NCBI RefSeq assembly: GCF_007981265.1
Contig: NZ_CP034363.1
Location: 2,604,001-2,668,000 of the forward strand
DNA: 64,000 bases
DNA from: Pantoea sp. CCBC3-3-1
GTDB lineage: Bacteria > Pseudomonadota > Gammaproteobacteria > Enterobacterales > Enterobacteriaceae
Reading direction: 5' to 3'
In this document: positions 6,082 to 30,081 of the stretch, in pieces
Layout: every line of letters starts with the position of its first letter
Numbering within the stretch: the stretch's first letter is position 1
Notes under the pieces: model-generated
The model's database searches: none
What the model was told of the DNA's origin: nothing
What the model saw: only the letters and a program-made list of their open reading frames with translations
Made by a program: the position numbers and the translations under genes

Positions 6082-6221
6082 GGGCAACGCCTCTAAGAAT
6101 TTACCGGTGTTATGGTAACGCTTTCGGCACCGCGGCGTAAGGCTCTCGCTGTCTGATAGCTCATTAACACGACAACAGAAGAGAGGGGATTTTTGGCACA
6201 CAGACGATTGCTGCACGTGAG

Positions 6222-6332
6222 GCATGGAGAACATGGGCCGGTAAGAAAGCGTCCTGGGCCATGGACGGCCCAGGCCGAGCTGGCAGGGATGCCGCCTTTT
6301 GCGTCTTTCTGGACGGCCCATGTTCTTCATGC
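6222..6332. repeat. 111-bp palindromic intergenic repeat, copy 1
   Basis: Outer arms from 6222 and 6332 pair over about 28 positions. Inside are two further hairpins: 6253-6274 (8-bp stem, loop ATGGAC) and 6282-6293 (GGCA/TGCC). A second copy of exactly the same length is at 29201-29311; the core is almost identical while the arms differ by compensatory changes. It lies between ydjA and topB in a gap of 448 bp. There is no transposase gene, so if mobile it is non-autonomous. Resembles no ERIC or REP consensus that I know. Confidence 0.85.
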
Positions 6333-6388
6333 AGGCACTGTGTCACCCATCTCAAGGCTGGAAATCGTTAACCCTGTAGAAGAAACAA

Positions 6389-29149: not shown

Positions 29150-29158
29150 TGACAAAAA

Positions 29159-29356
29159 GCCGGTTTGATTAAACCGGCCCAGACGGCTAACGAACGTGAA
29201 GCGCGGGGAACACAGGCCTGGAACAAAGCGTCCTGGGCCATGGACGGCCCAGGCCGAGCTGGCATGGATGCCGTATTTTGCGTCTTTGTGGAAGGCCTGT
29301 GTTCCCTGCGCCTGCAATGTATTTCAACAAACTCAAGCCGGTTTAATCAAACCGGC
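29159..29356. terminator. Paired palindromic terminators flanking repeat copy 2
   Basis: The 20-bp palindrome GCCGGTTTGATTAAACCGGC (29159-29178) recurs as its exact reverse complement at 29337-29356. The right copy is followed by seven T on the plus strand (spoVR terminator). The left copy is followed by five T on the minus strand (fadR terminator). Each transcript therefore runs through the 111-bp repeat before ending. Confidence 0.75.
29201..29311. repeat. 111-bp palindromic intergenic repeat, copy 2
   Basis: Same length and architecture as 6222-6332: outer arms pairing around 29201-29229 and 29284-29311, an inner 8-bp hairpin with loop ATGGAC, and a second inner hairpin GGCAT..ATGCC. The central core is nearly identical, while arm positions differ by paired changes that keep the stem. 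Confidence 0.85.
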
Positions 29357-29361
29357 TTTTT

Positions 29362-30081
29362 TTATCGACGCTGTGGCACGGCTTCAGTCGGCATGGTGTT
29401 CTGCATTCCATGCCAGAGCGTGCCGCTACGATGCCCATATTCACGAACAATTTCCGTGATTTTCTCAACCTGTTCGTTATGGCAGATAGTCAGTAGCTGC
29501 TGATAAAAATCACGCGCCAGCTGACGCGCTTCGGGATTGGAGAAATAGTGGCGGCCAACGCGCGTATAAAGCCCTTTCAGCCCGTTAAGGATTAACCCGT
29601 AAATCGGGTTGCCGGAAGCAAATGCCAGCCCACGGAAAATATTGTAATCCAGCTCGGTATAGGCTTCGGCTTTATCTTCGACCTGTTCCACAGCCACCAA
29701 TACCTCTTTCGCTTTATCCGGATAGTTGCGAATAGCGCGGCGGATAAAGACAGAGGAGATATCGGTGCGTACAGAGAGCAGATTATCAATAAGCTGCGGC
29801 ACGCTGTCGTGATCGAGACGCGCCAGCGTTTCTAAAATATTGAGACCGGAAGTTTCCCAAAAATTGTTCACTCGCGTTGGCTTACCATGCTGAATAGTCA
29901 GCCAGCCGTCTCGGGCCAGACGCTGTAGCACTTCACGCAATGTCGTTCGGGTAACGCCGATGAGCTCGGAAAGCTCGCGTTCTGCGGGCAAGATTGAACC
30001 TGGCGGAAAGCGGCTATTCCAGATGCTTTCGATAATATACTCTTCAGCGAAACCCGCAGGGCTCTGCGCCTTAATGACCAT
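29362..30081 (-). CDS. fadR: Fatty acid metabolism regulator FadR
   Basis: GntR-family repressor of fad genes and activator of fabA/fabB, released from DNA by long-chain acyl-CoA. 239 aa, exactly the E. coli length. The N-terminal winged helix (residues 5-75) has [39 protein letters not shown], and the C-terminal acyl-CoA binding domain has [24 protein letters not shown]. In E. coli nhaB is the divergent neighbour; here dsbB follows directly, so nhaB is lost or moved. A FadR operator lies before fadD in this window. Confidence 0.97.

Follow-up and report, generated by a model that had tools for sequence, protein, structure and literature searches.

Paired 111-bp palindromes in a Pantoea chromosome as copies of a probable YPAL/RU-2-type mobile element with predicted CsrA-binding loops

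Two closely similar palindromes lie 23 kb apart in the 64,000-nucleotide stretch of the Pantoea sp. CCBC3-3-1 chromosome analysed here (the window; the genome carrying it is labelled G000). What kind of element they represent, and what has kept them folded, are the questions that this locus raises. The original prediction placed the two palindromes, each of 111 bp, at 6222–6332 and 29201–29311 (loci L011 and L001, + strand), and held that at least six differences between their arms are each matched on the opposite arm. Checks against the sequence bear out the coordinates and length of both. Folding of the + strand gives energies of −71.2 and −72.5 kcal/mol for the two copies, with z scores of −7.2 and −7.5, and 0 of 200 shuffles fold as well. 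Nine base pairs differ between the copies: seven have changes in both partners and still pair (outer-stem pairs 3, 4, 7, 13, 14 and 19, and the inner-stem pair 24/88), two are wobbles (pairs 5 and 6, G-C versus G-U), and none is broken, in line with the predicted compensation. Elsewhere in the window lie a cspA thermoregulator RNA (Rfam RF01766; 59366–59836, − strand) and two tRNA genes (1678–1759 and 1943–2024) with equal Rfam scores of 53.4 bits.

The element is longer than first reported. An alignment of copies together with their flanks reveals ends beyond the 111 bp that most copies share in somewhat varying form, CAGACNGCTGACAAACTCAAA to the left and CTGCACTATGTCAACANCCTCA to the right, and the whole unit measures ~155 bp. 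Thus the 111-bp palindromic body stands (fold; 126.4 bits for copy 1 and 130 bits for copy 2 under the covariance model R1, described below), but the extent originally given does not, as the element runs on to CAGAC.../...CTCA, and a terminator hairpin is duplicated around the 29201 copy. At full length, YPAL/RU-2-type copy 1 spans about 6201–6354 (+ strand), from CAGAC to CTCA by its sequence, and copy 2 spans 29180–29335 (+ strand), as defined by its sequence, the aligned ends and an alignment with RU-2. Each body contains two hairpins capped by hexaloops with a C-G closing pair, assigned from sequence, structure and loop counts. In copy 1 these loops are ATGGAC (6261–6266) in hairpin 1 and AGGGAT (6285–6290) in hairpin 2; in copy 2 they are ATGGAC (29240–29245) and ATGGAT (29264–29269), all on the + strand.

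Could the likeness of two copies be a matter of gene conversion or chance? Their near-identical core speaks for this explanation and nothing else does, and we give it practically no weight. It is refuted by the 40 copies that BLAST (E<1e-6) finds in the 5.0-Mb chromosome, and by a covariance-model search, proposed along with the original prediction, in which a model built from the G000 copies alone (R1) has matches in 22 of 37 genomes: 21 of the 36 same-genus ones, with G000 counted, and G161. BLAST itself has a match in 8 of the 60 genomes searched, again counting the genome's own. Of the 51 R1 matches within G000, some may be a copy read again on its other strand; the weakest R1 matches may be related elements and not this one. 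In G161, R1 recovers 12 of 12 copies at E≤1e-10, these copies having come from 15 places in that genome above the cut-off of the Rfam family Ysr224, a result that also supports the family assignment made below.

Copies are also present on Pantoea plasmids. Two intergenic loci on Pantoea megaplasmids (L133–L151) vary strongly among strains, and the element takes full, tandem, long, recombinant and arms-only forms there. In G006 (L071–L074), two or three elements follow one another head to tail, repeating every 157–160 bp, and no terminator is seen between the units of these arrays. Short tandem repeats adjoin copies L023, L016, L061 and L066. A phage origin was considered and rejected, with 0 matches to the element in 50,697 phage records; one viral contig (L311) has a related core.

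Covariation across the family indicates that the folded form has been maintained, as predicted. Over 26 copies, 94.8% of cells are paired, compared with 36–48% when the partner is slid by 1–3 columns, and two-sided changes occur in 24 of 40 pairs, with 120 cells so changed versus a shuffle mean of 35. These changes are found in 17 of the 19 pairs of the outer stem, in 4 of the 8 pairs of hairpin 1 and in 1 of the 4 pairs of hairpin 2. RNAalifold, applied to 29 longer copies, likewise gives two-sided changes in 26 of 38 pairs. Divergence of the arms without compensation, named at the outset as evidence against a maintained fold, is seen by eye in a single recombinant, L145, which joins non-pairing arms of two subfamilies. 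Another copy, L149, consists by eye of collapsed arms only.

The flanks of the copies bear on how they were dispersed. In 13 of the 40 copies, the two flanks share sequence beyond what is seen between flanks of unlike copies (p<0.01; 12 copies in direct orientation, 10 in inverted, 13 in either), as aligned repeats of 12–36 nt that involve hairpins of ~20 bp. By eye, the flanks share the hairpin of an intrinsic terminator (at L003, for instance, GGGGACGAAAATCGTCCCC stands to either side), and most copies with a duplicated hairpin have an A-tract outside on the left and a T-tract outside on the right. Around the 29201 copy, the left target hairpin occupies 29159–29178, with the A-tract at 29154–29158 on its outer side, and the right one occupies 29337–29356, followed by the T-tract at 29357–29363 (no strand assigned to either hairpin). 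The right hairpin is the reverse complement of the left, the sole difference being the loop, which is reversed; the flank match scores 50 inverted and 35 direct, against maxima of 31 and 26 in unlike-copy flanks. For the remaining 27 copies, the 6222 copy among them, flank comparison detects no target duplication. A similar duplicated-terminator layout is seen in many copies of G031 and around the Yersinia-type copy on the viral contig L311.

Orthologous intergenic regions, the comparison of which had also been proposed, supply empty sites. With the lack of any R1 match at E≤0.1 taken as absence, the orthologous site has no element in 21 of 21 same-genus relatives for the 29201 copy, in 21 of 21 relatives for the 6222 copy and in 15 of 16 relatives for L018. 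In the sixteenth relative (L345, G006), a double-ANGGAN element that has diverged and scores 50.7 bits lies at 2289–2391 of L345, in the intergenic region of L018; it is apparently an independent insertion. One terminator is found at the L018 site in L338 and L341. At the 29201 site, 19 of 21 relatives have, in a simple scan of the 110 nt that follow the gene, a hairpin with a stem of at least 6, and clear terminators with A- and T-tracts are recognised by eye at the empty site, as in L106, L107, L110 and L111. An element that lies between two copies of a hairpin, and that is absent from 21 of 21 relatives, must be mobile and must have duplicated its target hairpin. For part of the copies, then, we show that the element inserted at a terminator and that the hairpin was duplicated.

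To what family does this mobile element belong? The original prediction did not recognise it as ERIC, REP or BIME, and this negative part stands; the structure is not, however, an unrecognised one, as it belongs to the described YPAL/RU-2 family. Aligned with the published Y. pestis RU-2 sequence (Table 1b in the available part of PMC2759123), copies L003, L042 and L001 score 57, 56 and 45, against maxima of 27, 27 and 25 in 500 shuffles. Because the alignment runs from end to end, the element is, on sequence grounds, a new member of YPAL/RU-2, a known family first described in Yersinia, and not a new class. The two have in common the ends CAGACTGCTGACAAAC and TCAATAACCTCA, the core AAAGCGTC...GCGTCTTT and two GGA hairpins, and the ends of a Y. 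similis copy (L231) are identical in kind to those described here. They differ in length (~155 bp here versus 167–168 bp), the outer arms being shorter here and unlike in sequence, and in hairpin 2, which reads GGCANGGATGCC here and TACATGGATGTA in RU-2. The original YPAL paper is said to place YPAL in intergenic DNA, close behind stop codons and at terminators. A gene-end position is likewise found here: among 30 copies with 3-kb loci, annotated with a simple ORF caller, convergent genes flank 20 and divergent genes none, and the 10 at tandem sites comprise 6 antisense and 4 sense copies.

Further traits can be compared with published accounts. According to the accessible portion of PMC2229807, YPAL elements have internal inverted repeats, lack TA ends and cause target duplications of 3–26 bp at sites of dyad symmetry, and their hosts are Yersinia and Erwinia carotovora; a table in the part of PMC2847712 available lists 2–144 matches to YPAL for each Yersinia genome and 3 for E. 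coli. Our element shares with YPAL, as so described, the internal inverted repeats, the termini other than TA and the long, variable target duplications at dyad targets. Duplication of variable size is seen in 13 of 40 copies and not in 27, the dyad targets are the terminator hairpins (19 of 21 relatives also have a hairpin where the element is absent), and a stable RNA hairpin is evident from in silico folding and covariation. The hosts differ, in that our element is found in the genus of the window genome and on Pantoea plasmids, and BLAST with L003 gives no match in E. coli, whereas the table mentioned above gives three for YPAL. Overall, we regard both the family membership and the mode of insertion as highly probable.

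At gathering score, Rfam holds no family for the element; two related entries emerge in E-value mode. RF02770 (Ysr224, Yersinia sRNA 224), which models the strand opposite to the element, matches the complement of L003, including the right end of the element, with 29.2 bits (gathering score 70), and its best match in G000 reaches 40.4 bits, also below 70. RF01731 (TwoAYGGAY), with which the element shares two terminal AYGGAY loops, matches L001 with 28.5 bits, below its gathering score of 43. TwoAYGGAY is typed Cis-reg by Rfam, and the part of its discovery paper available (PMC2864571) tabulates it as probably RNA and probably not cis-regulatory, with human gut, gammaproteobacteria and Clostridiales as sources; the available parts of its literature do not call it mobile, whereas the element here is. 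ERIC is ruled out by the ends CAGAC/CTCA and the length of ~155 bp, as opposed to the TA termini and 127 bp given for ERIC in the available parts of PMC2229807 and PMC2759123. A REP or BIME driven by a RAYT is rejected as well: among the element-rich genomes (G000, G003, G006, G029 and G031), the three searched, G000, G003 and G006, have 0 matches to the Y1 transposase (PF01797), as has G008. Searches of the literature under the names of hosts and repeats gave no account of the element.

What, then, has kept the arms paired? We compared the outer arms of 37 of the 40 G000 copies, 13 with a target duplication and 24 without. In the former, 220 of 245 outer-arm cells are Watson-Crick, versus a mean of 174 and a maximum of 200 in 1000 arm swaps; in the latter, 372 of 453 are, versus a mean of 281 and a maximum of 308. 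Compensated differences thus separate copies that still have a recognisable duplication, implying a constraint at least on the propagating lineages. We infer that the fold constraint is a property of these lineages, and compensation may also have followed insertion. In the outer arms of 104 copies, G-U and A-C mismatches stand at 55:34. The ratio is 40:17 in G000 (p=0.003), or 16:15 when counted there as distinct column types, and 15:17 outside G000. No orientation bias is seen among the 30 copies, with 4 sense versus 6 antisense at the 10 tandem sites. Neither the unbiased orientation nor the even wobble counts outside G000 show strand-specific selection on RNA; the form maintained may be RNA or single-stranded DNA, the two that the original prediction named.

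It is also conceivable that no selection on the fold is needed, if replication makes the compensation by switching template from one arm to the other (quasi-palindrome correction). The even G-U and A-C counts outside G000 are in line with this idea, as are the reversed loop of the duplicated target hairpin 29159/29337 and the target hairpins of L005, which are distinguished from each other by one compensated pair. Yet the inner hairpins covary too, as the counts given above for hairpins 1 and 2 show, and the loops between these covarying hairpins stay fixed, and we consider template switching a rather unlikely explanation. A more serious possibility, though not the reading that we favour, is that the element is purely selfish DNA, its fold serving transposition alone, as a folded single strand or a cruciform, and its ANGGAN loops being read by a mobilising protein and not by CsrA. 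The lack of orientation bias, the lack of wobble asymmetry outside G000, the compensated arms of copies whose target duplication can still be recognised and the duplication of the target hairpin itself are all consistent with this. Against it, the Y1 transposase, a transposase of the type that reads hairpins, is absent from G000, G003 and G006, and the loops themselves raise two further objections.

These loops were counted in 104 copies, obtained by aligning the best 150 of 155 R1 matches, removing 42 lower-scoring overlapping matches (mostly the other strand of the same place), which left 108, and then removing 4 that were gap-rich. ANGGAN caps hairpin 1 in 91 of the 104, hairpin 2 in 95, and both hairpins in 84; C-G closes the loop in 95 and 100, respectively; and the spacing between the two GGAs is 21 nt in 81 of the 84 double-loop copies. 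The counts are not independent, because the model was built on copies with ANGGAN loops and many copies are related. Conservation of ANGGAN loops points to an RNA-binding protein. We take the C-[ANGGAN]-G hexaloop of the element to be a CsrA/RsmA/RsmE site; that only the two N positions are free, as in the CsrA/RsmE pattern, is the first of the objections to purely selfish DNA. A spacing of 21 nt between GGAs suits a CsrA dimer, CsrA is encoded in G000, and two GGA hairpin loops, as looked for in a CsrA site, are present in 84 of 104 copies. GGA in hairpin loops is linked to CsrA binding in the available parts of PMC4333381 and PMC8144298, and the former gives TwoAYGGAY as a predicted CsrA-binding RNA that matches the CsrA motif. 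We predict from these features that RNA of the element binds CsrA, and consider this somewhat better than an even prospect. A paper combining YPAL and CsrA was not found in the literature searched.

The second objection comes from a wider set of genomes. The pattern GAGCCTACANGGANGTATTYACGGCG, derived from more distant Ysr224 matches, occurs in at least 119 stretches, and the 80 records listed for these matches are gammaproteobacterial, bar one MAG labelled only Proteobacteria. From 120 loci (the 119 listed GAGCCTACANGGANGTATTYACGGCG stretches and the viral contig), 116 were usable once matches near contig ends had been dropped; among these listed matches, a second C-ANGGAN-G hairpin lies upstream in 77 and is absent in 39, as compared with 10 of 2400 random places. 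The double loop is thus widespread, and the arms differ between lineages, among the matches listed. This recurrence of the loop pair across Gammaproteobacteria, in elements with different arms, argues against loops that serve transposition alone.

We return to a reading in which mobility and CsrA recognition would go together. A non-autonomous mobile YPAL/RU-2 element inserts into intrinsic terminators at gene ends, and the target hairpin then stands on both sides, with the A-tract on the outer left and the T-tract on the outer right, as is shown for part of the copies. Since the inner hairpins would lack the U-tract needed to stop transcription, a transcript would probably run through the element and stop at the outer terminator, and the element would join the 3′ UTR by this read-through. 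In silico, the + strand folds into a long stem with two branches that end in ANGGAN hexaloops, with 21 nt between the GGAs. Both loops could be clamped by one CsrA dimer, so that CsrA could land on every transcribed copy, and the many copies might jointly work as a CsrA sponge. As copies with a recognisable duplication already differ in compensated pairs, pairing of the arms may be needed for, or re-made by, mobilisation via a folded single strand.

A long variant on plasmids of P. agglomerans and P. eucalypti (L145, L148, L138) contains an extra 76–78 nt inside hairpin 1. This insert forms further hairpins nested in the hairpin 1 loop. In L145, from P. agglomerans, it aligns with the E. coli rrnB T1–T2 spacer over 29 bases, with 2 compensated pairs (score 38, versus a maximum of 27 in 1000 shuffles); the L138 insert shows no resemblance to the spacer (score 15), and BLAST with an L145-type insert gives no match in E. 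coli. According to the part of PMC8144298 available, RrB, the RNA encoded in the spacer, binds CsrA in vitro, helped by GGA loops, and the remaining 19 tRNA-linked repeats have low scores for CsrA binding. RrA, RrB and RrF (E. coli rrnA, rrnB and rrnD), as that part describes them, are like our element in being structured RNAs between two terminators, but the E. coli collection has no BLAST match to the element, and only the L145 insert shows a resemblance. In E. coli rrnB (L365), an 18-bp direct repeat (145–162 and 313–330), of the size of a target duplication, surrounds the T1/RrB region. One might go further and speculate that YPAL is the enterobacterial branch of mobile double-ANGGAN hairpins that extend over many gammaproteobacterial lineages and seed CsrA sites into 3′ UTRs via terminator jumps, with the rrn-terminator CsrA sRNAs of E. 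coli as domesticated relatives; we consider this improbable.

Finally, a structure that had been unidentified now has a place in a named mobile family. The empty sites and duplicated hairpins show how YPAL/RU-2 elements choose their targets, and the loops would tie this family to the CsrA recognition loop. If CsrA does bind, transposition would be a route for rewiring CsrA regulons, and work on YPAL, on TwoAYGGAY and on the rrn sRNAs would merge into one question. If the broad double-ANGGAN reading were also true, transposition would titrate or retarget the global regulator CsrA.
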